A stretch of DNA of 22,394 nt. Origin: a virus. A model generated the notes under the pieces. That model was not told where the DNA came from. It saw nothing but the letters and a program-made list of their open reading frames with translations, and ran no database searches. This document shows, in pieces, positions 4,847-17,611 of the stretch (the first letter of the stretch is position 1; the number at the start of each line of letters is the position of its first letter). The DNA lies in the IMG/VR virus record IMGVR_UViG_3300020020_000164, positions 1-22,394 of that record; one strand, written 5' to 3'. The position numbers and the translations under genes were made by a program.

Positions 4847-5232
4847 TGGCTGACGTGGATCACATCCGTCGGGACACGCTGCGTCTGGTGGAGGCGCTTG
4901 TCCGGGCCAAGGTTGAAACTCGCCGGGCGGAGTTGGCTTTCGCCAACGGGTGCGAGGCGTCGGCGGCTAGGGCTTTTGAGGACGGCCGGCTGTCGGTTGT
5001 CGAGGTCGACATGTGGCAGGCGGTTGGTTTGACGAGAGAGCTGACCGCAGCGGGTCTGGTGTTTGGCGACCCGTGTCCTGTGTGCGGGAAGGATGGGTGG
5101 CCAGCGGGGTCAGCTGGAAATGCTCGGCGGGGTCATGAGTTGGATCAGCATGAGGGCGATCCGCGGATCGAGCCGCGGTGGAGACAGTCCCGTGTCGGTG
5201 AGGGTGGGTTACTTGGTGGTAGCACACCATGA
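4846..5232 (+). CDS. Small protein with a CPVC/His zinc-knuckle-like motif
   Basis: A 128-residue protein. ATG 4846 is chosen over the upstream in-frame start at 4807 because GGAGAGGGG (4831-4839) lies just before it and the codon overlaps the preceding stop (TGATG). The N-terminal half is helical (DTLRLVEALVRAKVETRRAE). The C-terminal half has C77-P-V-C80-GKDGW ... H97-ELDQ-H102, a C-x2-C ... H-x4-H set that could bind one zinc. The C-terminal tail is Gly/Arg-rich. DNA or protein binding is possible; no named family is recognised. Confidence 0.65.
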   Translation: MADVDHIRRDTLRLVEALVRAKVETRRAELAFANGCEASAARAFEDGRLSVVEVDMWQAVGLTRELTAAGLVFGDPCPVCGKDGWPAGSAGNARRGHELDQHEGDPRIEPRWRQSRVGEGGLLGGSTP

Positions 5233-6255: not shown

Positions 6256-7815
6256 GTGCCGGACTCGCTGCGTCTCCCTGCACGTCTCCGACCTCGAGCC
6301 ATCACCGCAGCTAGCCAGCCCTACACACCCGACTTGTTCCAGTCGAGTTCGCTGTTTGGTTCGCGTCCGTGGCAGTTGGAGGCCTGGGCGTTCCGCCGGA
6401 CGATGGGCGAATTCGGGCAGGCCATCGACTGGCAGGCCCGCGCCATGTCCCGCATCCGCCTCCTAGCCGCTGAGGTTGTTCCCGGCGGGGACGAACCCGA
6501 ACCGCTCGATGAGGGACCGGCCTCGCAGCTGGTGGAAGACTTTTGCGGCGGCGGACCCGGCCACTCCGCATTCCTGAAGGCGATCACCCCGCATCTGCTG
6601 ATCCCGGGTGAGGGTTGGCTGATCGCGGAACGGGACGACCCACGCATGCCGCTGGCCGCCGCAGAGTGGGGCATCTTCTCCACCGAATGCGTCCAGGTCC
6701 GCGGCGGCGTGTTCTGGGTCCGCGTGGGTGAATCGTTGTGGCGGCCGCTGCTACCGGATGCGTTGCCGATGCGGATTTACGAGCCGGACCCGCAGTACCC
6801 GTGGCTGGCCACCTCCAATGCCGAGGCCGCGGTACCTATTTTGCGGCGCATCTTTTTGATCGATTCGCGGATCATCGCCATGATGGTGTCCCGCCTGGCG
6901 ATGAATGGGCTGCTGCTGATTCCGCAGGAGGGCATGTTCACGGTGCCGGCGCAGTACATGGAGGCGCCGGATCCGTTGGTGGCCATGTTCATCGACATCG
7001 CGGCGAAGAACGTCGCCAACCCGGGCAACGCCAGTGCTGCGATACCGATCCCGATCAGGTTCACCGCCGACCTGATCGACAAGTGGAAGTTGCTGAAGCA
7101 GGACGACCCGCTTGACGAATGGCTGTTGAAGGAGCGGGAGGACGAGCTCGGCCGCCTGGGTGACACGCTCGGGATCGCGCGGGAGCGGGTTTCGGGTGGG
7201 ATGGGTGAGCAGAACCATTGGGGTGCTGCGATCGCGTCGGAGGAGGAAGTCCGGATCACGTTCGCGTCGTTGGCGGAGACGATTTGCGGGGGTGTTACTA
7301 AGGCGTATCTCCACCCCATGCTCCGCAACGCCGGACTCAGCTTGGTTGGGCCGAACGGTGGCCGGTTGATTGTCTGGTACGACACGTCCGAGTTGACCGC
7401 GAAGGTGGACAAGTCGGATGCGGTCGTGAAGGCGTATGACCGCCTGGAGGCCAACGGGGCCGCGTTGCGGCGGGAGCTTGGTTTGGATGAGTCGGACGCT
7501 CCGGTCGGGGCTGAGCTCGCGGAGATGCTGTGGAAGAAACTCGCGGCGACTGAATCGTTGGCTCCGACTGCGATCAGTAATTTGATCGGCGTTGAGACTC
7601 CGGGGGTGGGTGTGTCGGCTCCCCCAGCCGATGGCCCCGGTGGCGGTGCGGCCCCGCCGCTCGATACACCTGCCCCCGGCCCAAACAACCAACCACCGAG
7701 GGCGGTCGAACCCGATCCGGGCGTGGTGCCGGCCCGGGTTGCGGCCGCAGCGAAAGTGTTGGCGTTGAACGGTGCGAACGGTAACGGTCATGCGACTCGT
7801 CACCGGCCTCACTGA
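6256..7815 (+). CDS. Portal protein
   Basis: A 519-residue protein that should form the dodecameric ring at one capsid vertex, through which DNA is packaged and the tail is attached. The GTG start has CACGGGGG at 6242-6249, 6 nt upstream. The N-terminal WQLEAWAFRRTMGEFGQAIDW and RLLAAEVVPGGDE regions, GEGWLIAERDD, and the long central and stem region match the general actinophage portal pattern. So does the block GERVSGGMGEQNHWGAA-type region at about 312-327 (ERVSGGMGEQNHWGAA), followed by VRITFASLAETICGGVTKAY. The C-terminal 80 residues are Pro/Gly-rich and likely disordered. Size, position before a MuF gene and a 26-nt overlap with it support the call. Confidence 0.85.
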   Translation: MPDSLRLPARLRPRAITAASQPYTPDLFQSSSLFGSRPWQLEAWAFRRTMGEFGQAIDWQARAMSRIRLLAAEVVPGGDEPEPLDEGPASQLVEDFCGGGPGHSAFLKAITPHLLIPGEGWLIAERDDPRMPLAAAEWGIFSTECVQVRGGVFWVRVGESLWRPLLPDALPMRIYEPDPQYPWLATSNAEAAVPILRRIFLIDSRIIAMMVSRLAMNGLLLIPQEGMFTVPAQYMEAPDPLVAMFIDIAAKNVANPGNASAAIPIPIRFTADLIDKWKLLKQDDPLDEWLLKEREDELGRLGDTLGIARERVSGGMGEQNHWGAAIASEEEVRITFASLAETICGGVTKAYLHPMLRNAGLSLVGPNGGRLIVWYDTSELTAKVDKSDAVVKAYDRLEANGAALRRELGLDESDAPVGAELAEMLWKKLAATESLAPTAISNLIGVETPGVGVSAPPADGPGGGAAPPLDTPAPGPNNQPPRAVEPDPGVVPARVAAAAKVLALNGANGNGHATRHRPH

Positions 7816-10800
7816 CGCCCAGCTCACCGACTACGAGCTGCACGCCGAACTCGCCACCGTCGAAGCACTCCAAAAGGTCGCCGACATCATCGCCGACCGG
7901 ATTGGCCAGATTCAGGTTGCTTCCGGTCGGGTTCGGTGGGACGGCTGTCCGTACGGGTTGCACCCGGCGCACGCCGGCCCCTGCACGCTGATCGCAGCCG
8001 ACGACGTGCCAGACGACGGGTTGCCGCCTGGGCAGCCGTACGTGTCACCCGACGACCTAGCCAGCATTCCGCCTCTGTGGGCGGAGGCTGCCGCGCAAAC
8101 CATCCTCCCCGTTGTCGCGGAGGTGTGGCAGGCCTCGTCAGGATCCGTCTACGCGCAAATGGTTGACGCAACAAACATCACGGCTCTGCCGTCCGTCGGC
8201 TCACTAGCTGCGGAGCAGTACCTAGCCCAAGCGGCCAACACCTTTGCTGAGGTCGGGGACGACCTGTGGGCCACCGCGCGGACGCAGCTGTTGGAGGGGT
8301 TTGAGCAGGGCGAATCCATCCCACAGTTGGCCGCACGGGTTCGCGGGTCGGCTGGGTTGACGGCGAAGACGGCGACGCTCGTGGCCAGAACGCAAGTACT
8401 TGACGCTTCAAACGCCGGCAGCATGGCTACCGCGCGGGCCTCCGGCCTGGAGATGCAGAAAGAGTGGATGTCCGCCGAAGACCTCCGCGTCCGACCCGCG
8501 CATGCGGCCGCCAACGGGCAGAAGGTTGACCTGGCCGCGAAGTTCAACGTCGGCGGGTTCGAATGCGACCGGCCCCACGACCCGATCCTGCCGCCCGAAC
8601 TCAGATATAGCTGCAGGTGCACTACGGGATACCTGATGGCCGAAGCGCAGGTCCGCCAAGGGCAACGTGACGCCGAACCCGAACCACCCCTGCCTGGGAC
8701 ATCCGGTGTGGACGACATAGCCGCGCAACAGTCCGCCGAGGTGGGGCGTGTCTTCGCCGAAGTAGACGAGGCATTCGACGCGTTGGGTTTGCCGCCGGTG
8801 CCAGCAACGGCGACAGCCATCCGTGAGATTGAGATCGACAACCGGATTCGGGCCGCGTACCGGCAAGTTGCCTCCGCCGATGGCGAATACGTCCTGCTGT
8901 CGGATCTGCGTCGCCACCTGGATGATCTGCCCCGCCGGGATGTTGACCTGACGCTGGCTCGGATGAATCGTGGCGACTATCCGGATGATGTCGTGGTGGT
9001 GCCGCAGTCCAACCAGAAGGCTTTGACGCAGGCCGACCGTGACGCGGCGGTGTTTGTCGGTGGCCAGTACAAGCATGCGATCAGGTTTGCGGATGCTTCG
9101 CCGCGGCCGCTGCCACCAGGAGGCGGGTTACCTAGAGGTATCCCCAATCTGCCCAGCCTGAGGACACCAGGTGATGTGATCCCCGGCGGTGCGGTGGTTG
9201 AGGCTGGTGTCCGCCCAGTCCTGGCATCAGCCCGCACACAAGGTGCAGTCGAACGGGTTTTTCGCGAAGAGTTTGAACGCATCACCGGCCGCAAACCGCG
9301 ATACGTCGACTTCCCGGGTTCTGCTGCAACCGCCCGGGAACACGCCGAGGGTCTGTTGCGTGGCCTGGAACGGTTCCCTGACGCCAAACTCGACTCAGTC
9401 GGCCCCCTTCTACGGCCGGTCAGAAGTGAGTACGCCCACGCCAGCGGCGGGACGATCCGGTTCAACTACGACGACTGGACAAGGCCGGCCCGGCGTAAGG
9501 CTTATCTGGAGTCCCTTCAGGGTGACGTCGCGGGCTGGGATAGGGGTGTTGTCGAGTTCGGCCTGGGCCTGTTCAAGAGATCCGCCTTCCACCCGCGCGG
9601 TACAGGCAACCCCATCGGTGTGGCTCTGCACGAGTTCGGCCATGTTCTCGACATTGCTACCGTTCAGAAAGCGATCCGTGGCGATCTTGATAAGCTGCTG
9701 AAAGCCCGTACGGCTGAGGCGATGCGCCGACCCCGGCCGGCGGGAGAGACGCCGATCACCGGTCCCGACGACTTGATACAGCGGGAGATTTCGGCCTACG
9801 CCGCCTCGGATCATGAAGAGTTGGTGGCTGAGGCGTTCGTCGACGTAATGATCAACGGCGAGGCTGCGTCCGTCTTGTCGAGGCAGATCTTTACGATTCT
9901 TGAGGTTGAATACCGGCGTGGCGGTATGCACATGGGTGCGGAAACGGTGGGCAAAGCCGCGGCGCGTATCCCTGCCCGTGCGGCTGGGCGTCCACGTCCA
10001 CTCGCTCAGTCGGATGCTGAACGGTTCGCTGGCATGGACCTGGAGGCAATCGCCCGCAGCCGCCATCTAGACACGGGCCCGAAAGTCGTCACAGCAGCTG
10101 AAGTTGATGCCGCCGTCGCCCGAGGGTGGGTTGAGGTGTGGCGTGGGGTGCGGAAGGTCGACGCCAACGACGCGTTCCGCACCGGCGAGTTGGATTTGGG
10201 TCAGGGCTTGTTCGGGCGTGGCTACTACTTCTCGACCCAACGTGGTGTGGCCGAGGTTTACCGCGGCGCGGACGTCAAGTTCGACTTGAATTACAGGATT
10301 AGCTCGTTCAGCGGCGGAATTGATGGTGGACTGTTGCGGGTCGCGATCAACCCAAGCGCGAGAGTCATTGACTACGACGACCTGCTCGCCGAGCGTAAGG
10401 CCCTGCTGGAGAAGTGGCGTGCGGAAGGGAAGCTGACCGGCGAGGCTGAAAAGTTGCTGACCGATCGGGATGTCAGCAAGTATGCGGCGGCTCGCGGGTA
10501 TGACGTCGTGCGGGTCAGGAACCGCACTGATGGTGTGAACATTGACGACTGGCCCGATCAGTATGTGGTGATCAACCGTAGGGCTGTGTTGGTGGAAGGT
10601 ACGCCTGCCGACATTCCAGTGCCCAGAATCGCTCGTGCGGTGCCGGCGCCGAAGCCGTTGCCGCGGATGACTGTTGCCGAACTTCGCACCGAGGCGTCTG
10701 CGCGGGGTGTGGTTGTTCCGGCGGGGGCGCGTAAGGCCGACATTGTGCGGCTGCTCGACGAGGCGCCGGCGACTGACCCGCGCAGGATTGCCGCGGCTCG

Positions 10801-12895
10801 GGCGCTGCCGGGCGTATCGGCATCCGTGCAGAGGGAGATGGTCGATCTCCTCGTCCGGATCGACGACCAGCCCGGAATCGCCATCGGCTTGTCGGATGAG
10901 CTGGACCGGCTCGTCTCCCGCGGACTGGTGCGCAGCGAGGCCGGTACGTTCGGCGACGCCATTCGGGGCCGGGCGCAACTGACGTCGACGAAGTATTTCC
11001 TCACCGACAAGGGCCGCGACGCACTGCGATCGGCCGCCACAGAAGCGCCTACCGCGACCCGCACTGTCGCCCAGTCCACCGCCCGCCAGACGCTGATCGA
11101 CAAGCGCCGCCAAACAGCCGACTTCAACGCCGACACACTCGCAGCACTGCTGGACGCGCAGGTTGACACCGACGTTCTGGTGCGCACGATCCAGCAGTCC
11201 GCCGCCCGCAACAGCATTCCGAAACGCACCGTCGACTCGCTGGTCACCGCAGCCAGGTCCGGGGATCCGGCGAAGGTTGAGGCCGCAGCGGCGCGGGTTG
11301 CCCGCACCGGCAAGGTTCAGCCGCTGGCCCGTACGACGGACATCGTGGCGTACGACCCGAAGACGATGCAGGCGCTGGAACGAGCCCAGCCGGGGCAGAA
11401 GGTCCGCGTTGTGCGACCCGGCCACACCGCCGATGTCGACGGCGAACGGGTGCAGTTGTCCAAGTCCGTCGTTGAGGTGTTGACGCCGGCCGAGATCCGC
11501 GACATCGAAGGCCGGGCGTTGCGCCAGGCGGCTCGTGAGCGGAATCGGCTGATCGAAGCCCGCACTGGTATGGCGCGTCTGCTGGCCGAGGTCGATGAGC
11601 TGATCTCCAAGGGCGCGTCGAAGGCGACCATCGCGCAACGCCTGGATGTGAAACTGACTGTGCCGGAGCAGATTTTCGCCGGCGCCGACCCTGCCATCGT
11701 CAAAGCCTTGGCGGATGCGCTTGCGTCTGGTGACATGGCCAAGCTGCGCGCAGCGGTCACACGTGCCGGGACGAAGGTGAAGATCAAGCCGATCTCCCGC
11801 GCCGGTGCGAAGGCCAAGTACGACCCGGACCTGATGGAGCCGTTCGCCGGTGACATTCCGGCCGGGGCGCAGGTGACTGTGGTGACGCGCGGCTCGTCGT
11901 TGACGCTGCCGGACGGCACCGTTTTGCAGTTGACTAAGGCGCGGGTGCAGCCGGTGCCGGTCAAGGCGACGAAGGCATCCTCTGCGGCCCCCGTCTACAA
12001 ACCACCGGGATCAATCAGCACAACGGACCAGGCTCGGGCCGCGAGGCTCGTCAGACGCGACCCGCAAATCTACGCCACCGTGCAGGACCGATTCGGCGGT
12101 ATCTCAACGTCCGGCAACCTGAGTGCGGAAGATGCGGCATGGTTGCAGACCCTCTACACGCGGGAGCGTGCTTTCGTTGAGCGGCTGGTGCAGACGGCGA
12201 GCATCGAACGGGACCTGGCTCGAGCGGCGAAGGCCGCAGGTTCAACGCCAGCCAAGTTCAAAGCTGAAGTGAGCGCCAAACTCAAGACAGCCTTCGCGGG
12301 CAAGCCGATCGGCGTGCGGGTCAGCTCCGAGGATTCGCTACAGGCGATCCTCCGGGACGGCCGGTTCAAGACGCAGTTCGAAGGTGCCAAGCGGGCGCCC
12401 GGGTTGCACGCTTCGGTGGACAGGCGGCGTCTCGGTGAGGAAATTCACGGCATCCCTGCCGGGACCGACCCGGCTAGCCGTCCGATCTACGGTTATGTCA
12501 TGCCCGACGGCATTAGGGCGGCCGGCGTCGGGGGTGACCAAGGCAACGATCTACTCAGTGCGTATGGGCGAATCCAGGTCGTGCTCAGACCTGAGGTTCG
12601 TGCACGCACCACGGCGACAATCGGGGACAGCCTCGATCGGCTCTTCGGGGTGCAGCCATCCGCAATCGACAACCCGTCCGCAGTTTCTGCGGCCGTAAGC
12701 TACCGCTGGTCGATCGGCGAGATTGACGAGATCTTCACCACCGAGTTCCGGCGGTCCAACTACGTGGAGGCACAGATCAATGGTGGCGTCGCCGTAAGCG
12801 ACATCGCCGAAGTGATCTTCCCGTCCACACCCAGCGCCGCTACCCAGGCTGCACTAGAGCGGCAGGGCATACCCTGGCGGGTGATGAGCCGATGA
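7790..12895 (+). CDS. MuF-like minor head protein fused to metallopeptidase, ADP-ribosyltransferase and DUF3626-like domains
   Basis: A 1701-residue protein (ATG 7790 chosen; GTG 7772 is an alternative). Order: zinc-knuckle-like VRWDGCP...H61AGPC65 at 48-65; MuF domain at about 95-285 (RTQVLDASNAGSMATA, EWMSAEDLRVRPAH238, SCRC 274-277); winged-helix-like module at 344-432 (NQKALTQADRDAAVFVGG); metallopeptidase-like region at about 470-720 with HEFGH 614-618 and a candidate third ligand E681 in ELVAEAF; ADP-ribosyltransferase-like region at about 765-940 with R785 (VWRGV), GYYFST 811-816 and DQYVVINR from 923; SAP-like motif at 960-992; second winged helix at about 1008-1081; two YDP repeat modules; and a C-terminal DUF3626-like domain at 1408-1701 (RPIYGYVMPDG, RTTATIGDS, YVEAQINGG). 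MuF proteins sit inside the capsid and can carry polymorphic toxin domains delivered with DNA. The enzymatic roles are inferred. Confidence 0.85.
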   Translation: MRLVTGLTDAQLTDYELHAELATVEALQKVADIIADRIGQIQVASGRVRWDGCPYGLHPAHAGPCTLIAADDVPDDGLPPGQPYVSPDDLASIPPLWAEAAAQTILPVVAEVWQASSGSVYAQMVDATNITALPSVGSLAAEQYLAQAANTFAEVGDDLWATARTQLLEGFEQGESIPQLAARVRGSAGLTAKTATLVARTQVLDASNAGSMATARASGLEMQKEWMSAEDLRVRPAHAAANGQKVDLAAKFNVGGFECDRPHDPILPPELRYSCRCTTGYLMAEAQVRQGQRDAEPEPPLPGTSGVDDIAAQQSAEVGRVFAEVDEAFDALGLPPVPATATAIREIEIDNRIRAAYRQVASADGEYVLLSDLRRHLDDLPRRDVDLTLARMNRGDYPDDVVVVPQSNQKALTQADRDAAVFVGGQYKHAIRFADASPRPLPPGGGLPRGIPNLPSLRTPGDVIPGGAVVEAGVRPVLASARTQGAVERVFREEFERITGRKPRYVDFPGSAATAREHAEGLLRGLERFPDAKLDSVGPLLRPVRSEYAHASGGTIRFNYDDWTRPARRKAYLESLQGDVAGWDRGVVEFGLGLFKRSAFHPRGTGNPIGVALHEFGHVLDIATVQKAIRGDLDKLLKARTAEAMRRPRPAGETPITGPDDLIQREISAYAASDHEELVAEAFVDVMINGEAASVLSRQIFTILEVEYRRGGMHMGAETVGKAAARIPARAAGRPRPLAQSDAERFAGMDLEAIARSRHLDTGPKVVTAAEVDAAVARGWVEVWRGVRKVDANDAFRTGELDLGQGLFGRGYYFSTQRGVAEVYRGADVKFDLNYRISSFSGGIDGGLLRVAINPSARVIDYDDLLAERKALLEKWRAEGKLTGEAEKLLTDRDVSKYAAARGYDVVRVRNRTDGVNIDDWPDQYVVINRRAVLVEGTPADIPVPRIARAVPAPKPLPRMTVAELRTEASARGVVVPAGARKADIVRLLDEAPATDPRRIAAARALPGVSASVQREMVDLLVRIDDQPGIAIGLSDELDRLVSRGLVRSEAGTFGDAIRGRAQLTSTKYFLTDKGRDALRSAATEAPTATRTVAQSTARQTLIDKRRQTADFNADTLAALLDAQVDTDVLVRTIQQSAARNSIPKRTVDSLVTAARSGDPAKVEAAAARVARTGKVQPLARTTDIVAYDPKTMQALERAQPGQKVRVVRPGHTADVDGERVQLSKSVVEVLTPAEIRDIEGRALRQAARERNRLIEARTGMARLLAEVDELISKGASKATIAQRLDVKLTVPEQIFAGADPAIVKALADALASGDMAKLRAAVTRAGTKVKIKPISRAGAKAKYDPDLMEPFAGDIPAGAQVTVVTRGSSLTLPDGTVLQLTKARVQPVPVKATKASSAAPVYKPPGSISTTDQARAARLVRRDPQIYATVQDRFGGISTSGNLSAEDAAWLQTLYTRERAFVERLVQTASIERDLARAAKAAGSTPAKFKAEVSAKLKTAFAGKPIGVRVSSEDSLQAILRDGRFKTQFEGAKRAPGLHASVDRRRLGEEIHGIPAGTDPASRPIYGYVMPDGIRAAGVGGDQGNDLLSAYGRIQVVLRPEVRARTTATIGDSLDRLFGVQPSAIDNPSAVSAAVSYRWSIGEIDEIFTTEFRRSNYVEAQINGGVAVSDIAEVIFPSTPSAATQAALERQGIPWRVMSR
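11315..11482 (+). repeat. Internal protein repeat, copy 1 (YDP barrel-like module)
   Basis: Residues 1176-1231 of the MuF fusion: VQPLARTTDIVAYDP, then a PGQKVRVVRPG turn and DGERVQLSKSVVEVL. The beta-rich pattern matches copy 2 at 11780-11956 position by position (YDP, PxGxxVxVVxxG, DGxxxQL). Each copy follows a helical segment containing an alanine-rich DPAxVxA-type stretch. It is probably a small barrel used as a spacer or binding module. Confidence 0.6.
11780..11956 (+). repeat. Internal protein repeat, copy 2 (YDP barrel-like module)
   Basis: Residues 1331-1389 of the MuF fusion: KIKPISRAGAKAKYDP, PAGAQVTVVTRG, DGTVLQLTKARVQPV. The YDP of this copy is 156 residues after that of copy 1, so the duplicated unit includes the helical stretch before each barrel. 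The copies have diverged well beyond simple recent duplication. Confidence 0.6.
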
Positions 12896-13122
12896 GAGTT
12901 GTAGCGCGCGACGGTGATTCGCTGCTCCTGACGGATGAGTCGGCGGGCGCGATCCTGCTGCCTGATGGGGCTGTGCTGTTGCGGGACGTTGCCGTTCTGC
13001 TCGGGCACGGCCAGTGGCGCGACTCAGACGAAGCCGTACCGCCTCACGCTCCGGCCGATCTAGCAGGCAGACTTTCGGCGCTACGGGCCGAGATAGACAG
13101 CGGCGCTACGGTGAAGTCATGA
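12892..13122 (+). CDS. Small protein downstream of the MuF fusion, candidate cognate/immunity protein
   Basis: A 76-residue protein whose ATG overlaps the MuF stop by 4 nt (ATGA); GGGTGAT just upstream can serve as a ribosome site. The N-terminal half is beta-rich and hydrophobic (RVVARDGDSLLLTDESAGAI, LLPDGAVLLRDVAVLL). The C-terminal half is polar with an amphipathic helix (ADLAGRLSALRAEID). No family is recognised. Polymorphic toxins usually have their immunity gene directly after the toxin-encoding C-terminus, which makes this the natural candidate, but it may equally be a small head protein. The next gene starts within its stop codon. Confidence 0.65.
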   Translation: MRVVARDGDSLLLTDESAGAILLPDGAVLLRDVAVLLGHGQWRDSDEAVPPHAPADLAGRLSALRAEIDSGATVKS

Positions 13123-14186
13123 CTGCACGGGTTCAGTCTCAGTGCACCCCGTCCTGCTCGAGGTTCCTGTCACCGTTCAACCCGGCCAACACGACCGGTG
13201 TGAAGGCGTGTGCGGCGTTCCCTCAGGGGATCCCGGACCGGGTGTGGAACAACGAGTTGGATCACCGGGAGCCGATCGACGGCGACCACGGACTGCGCTG
13301 GGAAGCCAACGAAGGCTACGACTTCCCGACGTATGCGTTCGCACCCGAGGCGTTGGGGAAAGGTACGATGGTGGCGGCAGGGGATTTTGAGTCCTACGTC
13401 GCCCGGAGTGGCCGGGAGACGCTAACCGGACGTGGAGCCGACCAGAAGACCGAGCCCGGCTCGGCAGGTGGCTATGAAGCGTCTACCCCGCACCACGGCA
13501 GTGGACAAGACGGGGACCGCCGGCTGGTAACGGTCGGCTGCGAGCAGCGAACCTTACTCGCAACGGTTACTGGTGAGTTGCATACCGGCGCGATGATCGC
13601 GTTGATCCTCGCCGACCCGGAGCAGTTGGCCGTGGACGGCGGGGAACCACCGGAAGAGTTGCATTGCACGTTGCTGTTCCTCGGCGAGGCAGACAAGATC
13701 GACGACCAGCGCAGGACGCAGATCCTGGAGATCTGCGAGATCATCGCGGCCGGCTGGTCTGAGTTCGAGGCCGAAGCATTCTCTGTGGCCATGTTCAACC
13801 CGCTCGGCGACGAACCGTGCATCGTGTTGGGCCTGTCCGGGGTCGAGTTGGCGGACCTGCACGACGACATCGAAGCCGAAATCGAAACCGACGTCGACCA
13901 GCACCAGCCCTGGGTGCCGCACATCACGCTCGCATACACCGATGACGCGATGCTGATTGGTGATCTGTTGGACCGCTGCGGCCCGGTCGTGTTTGACAGG
14001 CTGCGGGTGGCGTTCGGCGACCAAATCACAGACATCCCGTTGGGCGACGAGGAACCGGACGAACCCGACGACGAAGACGAGCCCGCCGAAGACGTCCCGG
14101 TGGTCGCCAGTCGGGTGCAGTGGGACGGCTGTCCCCGGTGTTCGAATCCGGTCCACGACGGTCCGTGCACCGCTATGGCGGCTTGA
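13119..14186 (+). CDS. 2H phosphoesterase (LigT-like) domain protein with zinc-knuckle tail
   Basis: A 355-residue protein starting at ATG 13119 (ATGA overlap). N-terminal part: CTPSCSRFLSPFNP, then ACAAFPQGIPDRVWNNELDH and GDHG (about 9-60), a Cys/His module that I recall from other actinophage head-region proteins. The central domain (about 155-310) has two HxT motifs, H182-C-T in LHCTLLFLG and H268-I-T in PHITLAYT, about 84 residues apart. That is the hallmark of 2H phosphoesterases, which act on 2',3'-cyclic or 2'-5' phosphodiesters and related cyclic nucleotides. An acidic linker (310-326) leads to C338PRCSNPVH346DGPC350, the same motif as near the MuF N-terminus. A role in the virion or early in infection (RNA repair, cyclic-nucleotide cleavage, ADP-ribose chemistry) is inferred; the substrate is unknown. 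Confidence 0.75.
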   Translation: MTARVQSQCTPSCSRFLSPFNPANTTGVKACAAFPQGIPDRVWNNELDHREPIDGDHGLRWEANEGYDFPTYAFAPEALGKGTMVAAGDFESYVARSGRETLTGRGADQKTEPGSAGGYEASTPHHGSGQDGDRRLVTVGCEQRTLLATVTGELHTGAMIALILADPEQLAVDGGEPPEELHCTLLFLGEADKIDDQRRTQILEICEIIAAGWSEFEAEAFSVAMFNPLGDEPCIVLGLSGVELADLHDDIEAEIETDVDQHQPWVPHITLAYTDDAMLIGDLLDRCGPVVFDRLRVAFGDQITDIPLGDEEPDEPDDEDEPAEDVPVVASRVQWDGCPRCSNPVHDGPCTAMAA

Positions 14187-14198: not shown

Positions 14199-14225
14199 CA
14201 CGGCAACACTCACGGGGGTGATGTG

Positions 14226-15614
14226 GTGCCGTGGCATGTCGAAGACGACAACGCTGACTGCCCAGGGTTCGCTGTCGTCAAGGACGAGGATTCGTCTGTG
14301 GCTGGGTGCCATGACACCGAGGCCGAGGCCGACGCCCAGGTCGAGGCTCTCTACGCCCAAGAGGTAATGGACGGCGAGGTACCTGAGGAGATGTCGGGTA
14401 CGGCGTGGGCCGGTGTCCTTGCAGTTGAGGGTGAGTGGACCGGCGACGGACGCATGTTCGCCCCCGGCTCCCTGGAGTGGGCTGATCTGCCGCTGCCGTT
14501 GAAGTGGCAACCCGCCGAATCGGAAGGACACACCGGCGCTGTCATCGTCGGCCGGATCGACAGCATCGTCCGGGACGGGAAACTGATCCGCGGCACCGGA
14601 ATCATGGACGACGACGGGCAGATGGGTGCCGAGGCGGTCCGGTTGATGCGGAAGCGCATGCTCCGCGGAACGTCGATCATGGCCGACGACACGGAAGACG
14701 AAGACATCGAATTCGTCTACGCCACCAACGACGAGAAGCCGGCAGAAGCACCCGAGGAACCCGCCGAAGGTGAAGACGTCGAAGTGCTGCCGTTGGGACC
14801 GTCGAAGATGGTTGTTCATCACGGCCGCATCCGCTCCTCCACCCTGTTGGCCGAACCGGCGTTCGTCGAAGCCACGATCGAACTCGACGAACCGGTCACC
14901 GCGGCCGCCTACACGGTGACTATTCCCGAGGTGTGGCCGGAGTGGTGGTTCCAGGAACCCGCCGAGCAGCCACCATTCGGCGCCCTGCACATCACACCCG
15001 AAGGCAGAGTCTTCGGATACCTCGGCCCAGCCAAAGTGCCGCACCGCGCGTTCCGGGCCTCAGGCCGGTCTATCACCATCCCCCGCGGAATCGATTACAC
15101 CGAGTTTCAGAACAAGCCCTGCCTCGTGGCTGGCGCTGATGGGCACGTCTATCGGATCAACGCCGGGAATGTGACGTTCGACTGCGGCCACCCATCCCCC
15201 TACGACACGAGGCGTGAGGACCCGTCGTGGGCGATGCAGCACTACGACAACTCGTGCAGTGTCGCCGCCAGGATCAGGGTGGGTGAAAACGGCCATGGGA
15301 CGTGGGTGGCTGGCGGGTTACTACACGGCATCACACCGGATGCGTTCGAACGGATGATGGCCTGCGCCCTCAGTGGTGACTGGCAGGGCGGGAAGTTGAA
15401 CGCCGCCCTGCTGGTCCCCGTTGAAGGGTTCCCCGTCGCCGCCGCGTCTATCCGGGTTCGGGACGATGCTTTGGTCGCGTCGACGGTGCCGATCGTGTTC
15501 GACGCGCCCGGTCCGGGTCCGGACACTCGGGCGACGTTGGAACGCATCGCCCGCAGCGTCGGCCGCGACGCCACCACCCGGTTCAAACTGCTACGGCAAC
15601 GGGCTGGGAGGTGA
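14226..15614 (+). CDS. Capsid maturation protease (prohead protease)
   Basis: A 462-residue protein that should cleave scaffold/delta segments of the capsid protein during prohead maturation. GTG 14226 is chosen because GGGGGTGAT (14214-14222), a near match to the ribosome complement, then has a 7-nt spacing; the adjacent GTG 14223 would leave 4. Residues 1-50 hold the CPGFAVVKDED...GCHDTEAEADAQVEALYAQE N-terminal module usual in this family. The protease core (about 60-220) has WAGVLAVEGEWTGDGRMFAP, LPLPLKW, likely catalytic H102 (GHTGAV) and S150 (RGTSIM), and LLAEPAFVEA. The second half (about 235-440) is the companion domain of actinophage proteases: GRVFGYLGP, GHVYRINAGNVTFDCGHPS, HYDNSC, GTWVAGGLL, ALSGDWQGG and VEGFPVA. 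Confidence 0.8.
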   Translation: MPWHVEDDNADCPGFAVVKDEDSSVAGCHDTEAEADAQVEALYAQEVMDGEVPEEMSGTAWAGVLAVEGEWTGDGRMFAPGSLEWADLPLPLKWQPAESEGHTGAVIVGRIDSIVRDGKLIRGTGIMDDDGQMGAEAVRLMRKRMLRGTSIMADDTEDEDIEFVYATNDEKPAEAPEEPAEGEDVEVLPLGPSKMVVHHGRIRSSTLLAEPAFVEATIELDEPVTAAAYTVTIPEVWPEWWFQEPAEQPPFGALHITPEGRVFGYLGPAKVPHRAFRASGRSITIPRGIDYTEFQNKPCLVAGADGHVYRINAGNVTFDCGHPSPYDTRREDPSWAMQHYDNSCSVAARIRVGENGHGTWVAGGLLHGITPDAFERMMACALSGDWQGGKLNAALLVPVEGFPVAAASIRVRDDALVASTVPIVFDAPGPGPDTRATLERIARSVGRDATTRFKLLRQRAGR

Positions 15615-15714: not shown

Positions 15715-15799
15715 CAGCCGTCTACCATGAGCGGCAAACAATCTTCCTGGGGCCATCCAGGTGCAGACAGTAGTTGTCTTCACTTCACGGGGGCTCCAC

Positions 15800-17611
15800 A
15801 TGGCAAAGACCACGAGCGGCGGCGCTGGCGCCTCGGACGCCCCGTTCACACTTCCCGCCGATCTTACGAACCTCACCGGCGAGCAGCTTGAGGAGCTGCG
15901 GGTCAAGGCTGAGGCCGAGTTCGACGCAATCTACGACCAGGACGGCGGACCGCACGCCGACCAACTCGCCCGTGCAACTGAACTCGCCGACGCTTTGGAC
16001 AAGGTCCGGGAACGTGTGTCGGCGATCGAAACCGCCGCAGCGGAGACTCAGGCCAAGTTCGACGAGTTGCGTTCCCGCCGCGCACCCGCGGTTGAGGAAG
16101 ACCTCGAGGCTGAAGAGGTCATCGAGGATCCAGAGCCGGTGGAGGGCGAAGTCCTTCCCGCCGTGCCGCAGCTCGTGACCGCGGCCGGACGTCCGCAGGG
16201 CGGCGCCGTCACGGCCTCCCGGGATACCGGCGGCCTGTCCGGACCCAGACATCGCATCAACCCGTCGCTGTCTGGGGCGCGTGCTGTCGCCCCGCCGCAG
16301 GAGCCGGCCAAACTCGAACTGGCTATGACCGCATCGGTTGGTCTACCCGGAAAGTTTGAACCCGGCGCGAAACTGACCGACCTAAGCGCGCTCGGTGACC
16401 TGATGGAAAGCCGAGCACGGTCGATGGGTGACGCCGCAAGCGGTAGCCGCAGCCGCAAGCGCCGCGGACATGAGCCATATGGCGGAGCGCAGGTCGCGTC
16501 CATCCGCAATGAGTGGGCCGACAAGCTGTCCGACACGTCGACGGCCGACGCGGTGCAGGCATACATCGAGAAGGTTCAGGGCAACCGGACCGCATCGAAG
16601 TTCGAAACTCTGGTTGCTGGCGGCGGTTGGTGTGCACCGTCGCAGAACCGGTACGACTTCTTCAACATTGCCTGCGAAGGCGGCGGAATTGACCTGCCCA
16701 CGTTCGGTGTCGAACGTGGTGGCATCAACTTCCCCGTCAGCCCGAGCTTGGCGGACACGTTCGTCCCGGCCCTGCCGTGGCTGGTGCCGTTCACCAATGC
16801 GACGGTGCCGTGGTTGTGGACCGAAACCGACGACATTCTGACCGTCACCGGGTCCACGAACAAGCCGTGCATCCGGGTCCCCTGTAGCTCCATGACGAAT
16901 GTGCGGCTGGAGTGCTACGGCATCTGCTTGACCGCCGGCAACCTGGCCGACAACGCCTGGCCCGAGTCAACTAGGAACTTCCTGCGGCTGCTCATGGCGG
17001 CGCACTCCCACGCCTCTAATGGCCGGTACATCTCGCAGATCGTCACCGCCGCTGGTACAGCCATTACCGGCTGTGCGGGAGGGTCGGCGACGACCTCGCT
17101 GCTCGGCACGGCCGAGCTGGGGGCGTGGGACTACCGGTCCCGGTTCGGCATGTGTGAGACGGACGTGCTGGAGTGGATCCTTCCCGCATGGGCCAAGGGC
17201 GTCGTCCGATCCGACCTCGCGAAGCGGACCGGCGTGTCCGACTTCATGTGCGTCACCGACGCGGAGATCGCGGCTTGGTTCGACTGCCGCAACCTGCGTG
17301 TGCAGTTCGTGGAAGACTGGCAGGTCCGCGCCACCGGCCTACCGGGTGCATCAACGCCGATCGCCCGGTACCCGGCCAATGTCAACGGCCTTCTGTATGC
17401 GGCTGGCACTGTTGCCCGCGGCAACGGCATGAGCCTCGACCTGGGTGTGGTGCGTGACTCCACGTTGAACGCGGAAAACGACTTCACCGCGGCGTGGATG
17501 GAGGAGTGCCACCTGATCGCCCAGTTTGGGCACCAGGTGCGGAACTACTTCATCCCGATCTGCCCCGACGGCCGGACCGGTATCGCCAACCTCACCGACT
17601 GCTGCGCATAA
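15800..17611 (+). CDS. Major capsid protein with N-terminal scaffold/delta region
   Basis: A 603-residue protein. ATG 15800 is chosen because CACGGGGG (15786-15793) is 6 nt upstream; the longer in-frame start at 15761 lacks this. Residues about 24-92 are a charged coiled coil (LTGEQLEELRVKAEAEFDAI, LADALDKVRERVSAIETAAA). An acidic/Pro linker and a basic, low-complexity stretch (about 205-223, SRSRKRRG) follow. This is the expected removable delta/scaffold segment, cut by the protease just upstream. The remaining 380 residues (from about 225) form the shell domain, with FNIACEGGG, LPTFGVERGGINFPV, TDDILTVTGSTNKP and a C-terminal TAAWMEECHLIAQFGHQVRN. All 14 cysteines are in the shell part, none in the delta part. 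HK97 fold is inferred from position, length and layout. Confidence 0.8.
   Translation: MAKTTSGGAGASDAPFTLPADLTNLTGEQLEELRVKAEAEFDAIYDQDGGPHADQLARATELADALDKVRERVSAIETAAAETQAKFDELRSRRAPAVEEDLEAEEVIEDPEPVEGEVLPAVPQLVTAAGRPQGGAVTASRDTGGLSGPRHRINPSLSGARAVAPPQEPAKLELAMTASVGLPGKFEPGAKLTDLSALGDLMESRARSMGDAASGSRSRKRRGHEPYGGAQVASIRNEWADKLSDTSTADAVQAYIEKVQGNRTASKFETLVAGGGWCAPSQNRYDFFNIACEGGGIDLPTFGVERGGINFPVSPSLADTFVPALPWLVPFTNATVPWLWTETDDILTVTGSTNKPCIRVPCSSMTNVRLECYGICLTAGNLADNAWPESTRNFLRLLMAAHSHASNGRYISQIVTAAGTAITGCAGGSATTSLLGTAELGAWDYRSRFGMCETDVLEWILPAWAKGVVRSDLAKRTGVSDFMCVTDAEIAAWFDCRNLRVQFVEDWQVRATGLPGASTPIARYPANVNGLLYAAGTVARGNGMSLDLGVVRDSTLNAENDFTAAWMEECHLIAQFGHQVRNYFIPICPDGRTGIANLTDCCA

Follow-up and report, generated by a model that had tools for sequence, protein, structure and literature searches.

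What might a virus do with a head protein that joins a predicted protease and two unrelated ADP-ribosyltransferases (ARTs) in one chain? The question is raised by a gene in IMGVR_UViG_3300020020_000164, a contig from an uncultured virus, of which positions 1-22,394 were analysed (the window, 22,394 bases). An original prediction had placed in a single frame a MuF signature, a HEFGH motif, an ART-like block, a SAP motif, two winged-helix-like modules, two YDP repeats and a DUF3626-like end, and translation confirms one frame of 1701 residues (positions 7790-12895) that holds all of these parts. In our judgement the product is probably a MuF-anchored polyvalent effector of an actinobacteriophage, whose protease and two ARTs would be carried into the cell with the DNA, and the small gene that follows it would encode the SopF-type ART's own partner. 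The packaging, ejection and enzyme activity of this protein are what we infer. The features that carry this reading are the following, with lengths in amino acids (aa) and residues numbered in the MuF protein.

7790..12895, + strand: MuF multi-effector protein of 1701 aa, translated without an internal stop
9209..9997, + strand: zincin-type metallopeptidase, residues 474-736, with HEFGH at 614-618 and conserved Tyr670, Glu677 and Glu681
10019..10603, + strand: ART1, the first ADP-ribosyltransferase-like domain, residues 744-938, a polyvalent-type ADP-ribosyltransferase fold with R785, Y813 and D905
12059..12892, + strand: SopF/DUF3626-family ADP-ribosyltransferase, residues 1424-1701, with invariant Glu1660
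12892..13122, + strand: open reading frame (ORF) of 76 aa that overlaps the MuF stop codon, candidate cognate partner (immunity or antidote) of the SopF-type ART

The description of the C-terminal end as DUF3626-like holds in matches to PF12294 (5e-4, weak) and phrog_8314 (1e-14), and can be corrected to a more specific family. In an alignment of 36 SopF-type members seven residues are invariant, among them Glu1660. When the profile of these 36 sequences was compared with all PDB sequences, the only significant matches were 7dn8 (3.1e-8) and 7dn9 (5.6e-7); the position of Glu1660 is Glu in 7dn8 and Asp in 7dn9, a complex with nicotinamide adenine dinucleotide (NAD). Both entries are SopF, an ADP-ribosyltransferase with an I-Y-E triad that requires the protein activator ARF (PMC10333799) and carries DUF3626 (PMC6682159). 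Because the only significant PDB matches are SopF entries and Glu1660 is aligned with them, the domain is by its sequence a SopF-family ART, with a catalytic Glu assigned by homology. The likeness lies in the profile match over the catalytic half and in the conserved catalytic Glu, whereas the N-terminal part differs, and SopF is a Salmonella effector rather than a module of a phage head protein.

The SopF-type domain is encoded in 118 stretches of phage contigs, of which the best 80 were kept as loci (handles beginning with L). The family extends across phages of actinobacteria, cyanobacteria, lactococci and Bacillus (SP-15), and includes TP901-1 ORF33, Tierra gp9, D29 gp2 and proteins of Nodularia phages. 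It is also present in 36 genome loci, mostly of Actinomycetota. D29 gp2 (L005 1318-2097), annotated as hypothetical, is a stand-alone SopF/DUF3626-family domain that keeps the conserved Glu. Three Nocardia genome proteins of 3800-4970 aa (L107, L111, L114) carry a SopF-type domain, two of them together with zincin-like domains. No paper linking SopF to phages was found in the literature searched. The enzymatic guess for these phage domains is not wholly new, since Tierra gp9 is already annotated 'capsid maturation protease and ADP-ribosyltransferase'.

ART1 was harder to place. Pfam gave no family matches, and a scan of viral contigs with the single protein found none; matches came only from an alignment of ART1 with a giant viral protein (L010) and gp271 of Bacillus phage SP-15. 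This alignment located the domain, with its VWRGV and GYYFST motifs, in 16 other viral loci. It is C-terminal on portal proteins (L011, L013, L016), on MuF proteins (L018, L023, L024, L026) and on a 2H/protease fusion (L012), carriers that are all head-linked. A profile search of the PDB with the alignment gave no meaningful match, and a structure model was therefore made. The model (predicted local distance difference test score, pLDDT, 84; predicted template modelling score, pTM, 0.81) matches PDB entries that nearly all have the ART fold, including ExoA, cholix, RES toxin, PARP and diphtheria-type proteins; the top match is a protein of the cyanophage A4 pre-ejectosome, a structure for which the literature searched yielded no description. 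Among the BFVD phage models many named ART-PolyVal proteins match as well.

Conservation across the ART1 family is strongest at R785 (14/16 sequences), Y813 (16/16) and D905 (16/16). With strands numbered from the model, R785 lies in the first long strand, Y813 in a GxGxY motif and D905 in GYD. The block had originally been called an R-S type ART. The ART fold is upheld by the model, but the R-S type is not, given the R785-Y813-D905 set and a variable strand Glu; an R-S-E assignment was dropped as the E-x-E / Q-x-E Glu position varies in the alignment. ARTs of polyvalent proteins (ART-PolyVal / Tox-ART-HYD2-like) are described with an H-Y-D active-site set (PMC5512222), and the R-Y-D set of ART1 appears to resemble it, with Arg for His. 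PF18760 (ART-PolyVal) had no match over the curated cut-off in 16 records and none in the window, the sub-cut-off signals being one weak match in a relative's record and one of E 0.097 in L013, and ART1 was therefore not filed under ART-PolyVal. A mixed alignment of nine sequences gave no usable pattern.

The HEFGH motif of the original prediction is present at residues 614-618, and in an alignment of ten sequences it and the Glu residues of the second helix downstream (Glu677/Glu681) are at least 90% conserved. The zincin profile matches lethal-factor protease at E 0.0019. In the structure model (mean pLDDT 79) the first 14 PDB fold matches are all zincins, though at weak E-values, which suggests a deep fold relationship. 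Iyer et al. 2017 recognised the zincins of polyvalent proteins with the same lethal-factor structure (PMC5512222), and a weak fold match agrees with this. A search of phage records with the zincin by tblastn found none. The window domain has the HExxH motif and downstream Glu in a zincin fold that mark the zincin metallopeptidases. A protease plus one or two ARTs had been proposed, and the evidence at sequence and fold level supports this with two ARTs: the models recover zincin and ART folds in the proposed ranges and the C-terminal end has its profile match to SopF.

A close relative, L031, shows how these modules are exchanged. The two phages are 95% identical in the portal protein, 96% in the protease and 90% in the capsid protein, and within the MuF protein 83% in residues 1-337, 93% in residues 947-991 (SAP) and 90.5% in the YDP block (1098-1393), but only 41% in the zincin and 54% in the SopF-type domain. 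ART1 is absent from L031, which has ADPrib_exo_Tox (an exoenzyme-type ART) in its place, an extra second zincin and a different module order. Synonymous divergence (dS) is 0.38-0.48 for portal, protease, capsid and YDP block, 0.89 for MuF, 1.67 for the zincin and 2.47 for the SopF-type domain, while the ratio of nonsynonymous to synonymous divergence (dN/dS) is 0.15-0.32 in the enzymatic modules that can be compared, indicating purifying selection. Because dS of the effector modules is far above that of portal, protease, capsid and YDP block and dN/dS is low, the effector modules have been replaced by exchange under continued purifying selection and have not drifted fast. The MuF domain may itself be a mosaic, with its dS of 0.89.

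Such arrays are not confined to this pair. In the set of loci gathered here, 10 of the 28 head proteins with a MuF and a SopF-type domain carry at least one further effector: a zincin, ART1, an exoenzyme-type ART or a PI4K/HipA-like kinase. In L013 a single protein unites two copies of ART1 with a SopF-type and a portal domain. The carriers of the modules vary (portal, MuF, 2H/protease fusion, giant polyvalent protein) and the family-specific partners are kept. A polyvalent protein of more than 4200 aa (L027 2-12730) holds ART1, a SopF-type ART, a kinase-like domain and a C-terminal HEFGH in one frame.

The anchor and the parts between the effectors are as follows.

8084..8677, + strand: MuF domain, residues 99-296, presumed head/portal anchor
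8795..9124, + strand: module wh1, residues 336-445, winged-helix-like by eye only, recurring in L012 and L030
10658..10765, + strand: HeH/SAP motif, residues 957-992
10790..11074, + strand: module wh2, residues 1001-1095, winged-helix-like, recurring in L028
11315..11491, + strand: YDP module 1, residues 1176-1234
11783..11959, + strand: YDP module 2, residues 1332-1390

The MuF signature is borne out by PF04233 (1.3e-14 at residues 164-279) and phrog_2468 (9e-33), and the SAP motif by Pfam HeH (1.6e-3 with the whole protein, 1e-5 with the fragment). Both YDP repeats are present, and such modules are found in six or more further virion proteins. The two winged-helix-like modules stand as recurring modules, but for the fold itself the best Pfam match is only HTH_45 at E 0.24. 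Searches of phage records by tblastn with wh1 and the YDP block found none. Since the HeH/SAP motif is flanked by swapped modules, a hold on the packaged DNA or a linker role is more likely for it than the aiming at DNA or chromatin-like targets that had been proposed. In L030 (2852-8263) wh1 and a YDP module occur in a portal-like protein that also has a SopF-type ART and a Nudix-box-like stretch.

Small partner genes provide a further line of evidence. The ORFs that follow SopF-terminal genes have a common motif ending in ILARGYWE, and iterated hidden Markov models place this partner family 0-35 base pairs downstream of many SopF-type genes; it also lies upstream of SP-15 gp271, whose SopF-type domain is not terminal. 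Genes that end in ART1 are followed by a different small gene family. Among the loci gathered here the first partner accompanies SopF-terminal genes in 31/56 cases and the second in 0/56, and the second accompanies ART1-terminal genes in 6/16 with the first downstream in 0/16, the counts of 31/56 and 6/16 being partly circular and some loci redundant. In a non-circular test, viral contigs were scanned with each partner alignment alone and new contigs were counted. The SopF partner was found in 19 new contigs, and in 16 of these a SopF-type domain lies next to it or is fused to it; the ART1 partner was found in six, all six beside ART1. Two of the three SopF-partner exceptions have 4 kb upstream without a SopF-type domain; in the third the upstream sequence is limited to 0.8 kb and begins within a zincin. 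The 76-aa ORF of the window stands at the divergent end of its family and is 42% identical to its counterpart in L036. The association itself is shown, and the 76-aa protein is most likely an immunity or holding protein by predicted function.

These findings are consistent with the following course of infection. The MuF domain would attach the protein to the portal or head interior, so that a few copies are packaged and enter the cell with the DNA; we infer this delivery because MuF proteins offer precedents. The zincin may attack host proteins, or it may cut the chain, either inside the virion or once it has entered the cell. ART1 and the SopF-type domain would use NAD to modify host molecules that differ between the two, and would so promote infection or counteract defence, steps that rest on the fold and, for the SopF-type domain, on a catalytic Glu by homology. 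The HeH/SAP, winged-helix and YDP parts would be linkers or DNA-holding parts, conserved while neighbouring effectors are exchanged around them, as the divergence pattern indicates. The 76-aa partner would keep the producing cell safe until virions form. Precedents for the mechanism are T4 Alt and the MuF-ART Bxa with its small inhibitor Bsi (PMC11699363).

Several observations weigh against this reading, first of all against the immunity function of the partner. The 76-aa ORF joins its family only through intermediates and scores E 0.36 with its relatives left out, when it is still the sole scoring frame of the window. A SopF-type ART and the partner are fused in frame in L151, L155, L158 and L160, an uncommon arrangement for an immunity protein, and internal SopF-type domains (L031, L028, L013) have no adjoining partner gene of their type. 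Because of these fusions and these internal domains we allow for an activator or holding role. The small protein could be an activator, chaperone or loading factor instead of an immunity protein, a serious alternative that we consider somewhat the less probable one. In-frame fusions of the partner to the next gene's product (L054, L079) point the same way, as does the need of SopF itself for a protein activator, ARF (PMC10333799).

The protein could also be a polymorphic toxin for bacterial competition, such that particles from lysogens inject the ARTs into rivals and the partner gene protects the lysogens. Such a role has been put forward for MuF toxins (PMC5576092), and Bxa itself acts against bacteria (PMC11699363); partner genes specific to each ART type and the integrase in related records would fit it as well. 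However, three effectors with partners for some only are a poor fit to a single immunity gene, ART1 of the window has no partner gene, and delivery during ordinary infection would give the same sequence pattern. We therefore regard the competition role as unlikely.

The remaining points against a MuF-anchored effector concern the enzymes. The late-strand Glu is not conserved in the ART1 family, where the window has D923-Q924-Y925, so that ART1 may be inactive or use another residue set. The zincin fold matches are weak (best E 0.05), and a related zincin, that of L012, has lost HExxH. Effector-free MuF proteins exist, as SPP1 gp7 illustrates (PMC5576092). If the modules were mostly accessory or inactive, the protein would be a large structural or pilot protein serving head assembly or DNA packing. 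We consider this improbable: all 36 SopF-type sequences keep the Glu, HEFGH and the Glu ligands are kept in nearly all aligned zincins, dN/dS is low, and the modules change carrier protein yet keep family-specific partners.

The idea that chimeric assembly or misreading produced the long frame, as an uncultured virus record might suggest, was dropped as almost inconceivable, for in an independent contig (L031) a single long frame again joins this MuF start to the SAP and YDP blocks, the neighbour genes are 90-96% identical, and codon-position guanine-plus-cytosine content is uniform along the window frame. This uniformity and the purifying selection on the enzymatic modules (dN/dS 0.15-0.32 with L031) also show that the frame is not due to chance. 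An in-frame GTG at 7772 would give 1707 aa; the context of the ATG at 7790 is the same in L031.

The gene lies in a head cluster in the order terminase, portal, MuF, 76-aa ORF, 2H protein, maturation protease, major capsid and tail genes.

1035-2648: terminase
6256..7815, + strand: portal protein of 519 aa (phrog_776, 2.4e-87), overlapping the start of the MuF gene
13119..14186, + strand: 2H phosphoesterase protein with a Cys-rich N-terminus (PF13563, 2.8e-8; phrog_18402, 1.8e-29)
14223..15614, + strand: capsid maturation protease-type protein (phrog_859, 1.4e-68; phrog_18402, 1.4e-17)
15761..17611, + strand: major capsid protein (phrog_777, 1.1e-117)

The host is probably an actinobacterium, because the nearest relatives of the major capsid protein (about 30%) are those of Microbacterium and Streptomyces phages. 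The virus is probably temperate: an integrase is present in the records of relatives L031, L028 and L030; the 22-kb window record contains none, and a search for a resolvase-type integrase found none. No relative of the MuF N-terminus was found in bacterial genomes, and the whole 1701-aa protein had no match in viral contigs. It is possible that the 2H protein is a further virion effector. A Cys/His motif (WDGCP..., ...H.GPCT) occurs at 7937-7990 and 14121-14180 in the window and at 5159 and 11736 in L031, in both phages at the MuF N-terminus and the C-terminus of the 2H protein, and may be a zinc-binding or packaging tag that the two proteins have in common. One frame runs through the 2H protein and the maturation protease and is split by a single TGA (14184-14186); since L031 has it too, this is a real stop and not a sequencing error.

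There are published accounts of MuF toxins, of polyvalent proteins and of actinobacteriophage MuF-ART fusions. In the literature searched we did not find a MuF protein with three effectors, the exchange of internal cassettes, SopF-family domains in phage heads or the two ART-specific partner families. MuF polymorphic toxins (Jamet et al. 2017, PMC5576092; PMC11699363) resemble the window protein in their MuF N-terminus, a toxin-type C-terminus that includes ARTs and metallopeptidases, a small downstream ORF and a prophage-linked lineage, and Bxa is an experimental case of a MuF-ART toxin with a small adjacent immunity gene (PMC11699363). The window protein likewise has MuF in a head cluster, a C-terminal toxin-type domain and a small downstream ORF of predicted immunity type. 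In contrast to the single C-terminal toxin of those proteins, it has three effector modules with internal cassettes, and it probably belongs to an actinobacteriophage, whereas MuF toxins are reported mostly from Firmicutes phages (PMC5576092). The original remark that a MuF toxin mostly has just one toxin domain fits the way in which these proteins are usually published, but two to four effectors are found in several relatives of the MuF multi-effector protein. Neither the SopF-type ART nor its partner family is named in the parts of PMC5576092 and PMC11699363 drawn on here.

Polyvalent proteins (Iyer et al. 2017, PMC5512222) are alike in being large, in combining zincin, ART, Rho-N/SAP and helix-turn-helix domains, in their predicted injection, in a zincin proposed to process the chain and in an ART with Y and D active-site residues. 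The window protein shares their defining feature of unrelated enzymatic domains together (zincin, ART1 and SopF-type ART). However, polyvalent ARTs have His where ART1 has Arg, and the anchor here is MuF; in the part of PMC5512222 drawn on here DUF3626 or a SopF-type ART is not listed and family-specific partner genes are not described. Two Microbacterium phages, Percival and Goodman, have MuF-VIP2 fusions (PMC7302621), which are also actinobacteriophage MuF-ART proteins predicted in the virion, but these have one VIP2-type ART and no reported zincin or SopF-type domain, and the two phages gave no indication of a temperate life cycle. In Mycobacterium phage Tierra, gp9 is likewise a head protein that bears a SopF/DUF3626-type domain, and its gene occupies the corresponding place in the genome; it differs in its 727 aa and in the single effector domain found.

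Set beside these systems, the locus presents a protease and two unrelated ARTs held as cassettes by one head protein, with close relatives swapping cassettes and keeping linkers. It places SopF/DUF3626 enzymes, best known from one Salmonella effector, in many phage heads, including those of the laboratory phage TP901-1 and of Tierra. We suggest tentatively, at somewhat less than even confidence, that the head proteins of these phages hold exchangeable multi-effector arrays, with a dedicated small inhibitor gene for each ART family; the SopF family of pathogens would in that case derive from, or have a common ancestor with, a large family of phage ARTs delivered by the virion and accompanied by inhibitors. 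The pairing of each ART type with its own small partner gene is a testable rule, and the locus offers direct candidates for phage-encoded inhibitors of ADP-ribosylation and for what phages inject besides DNA.
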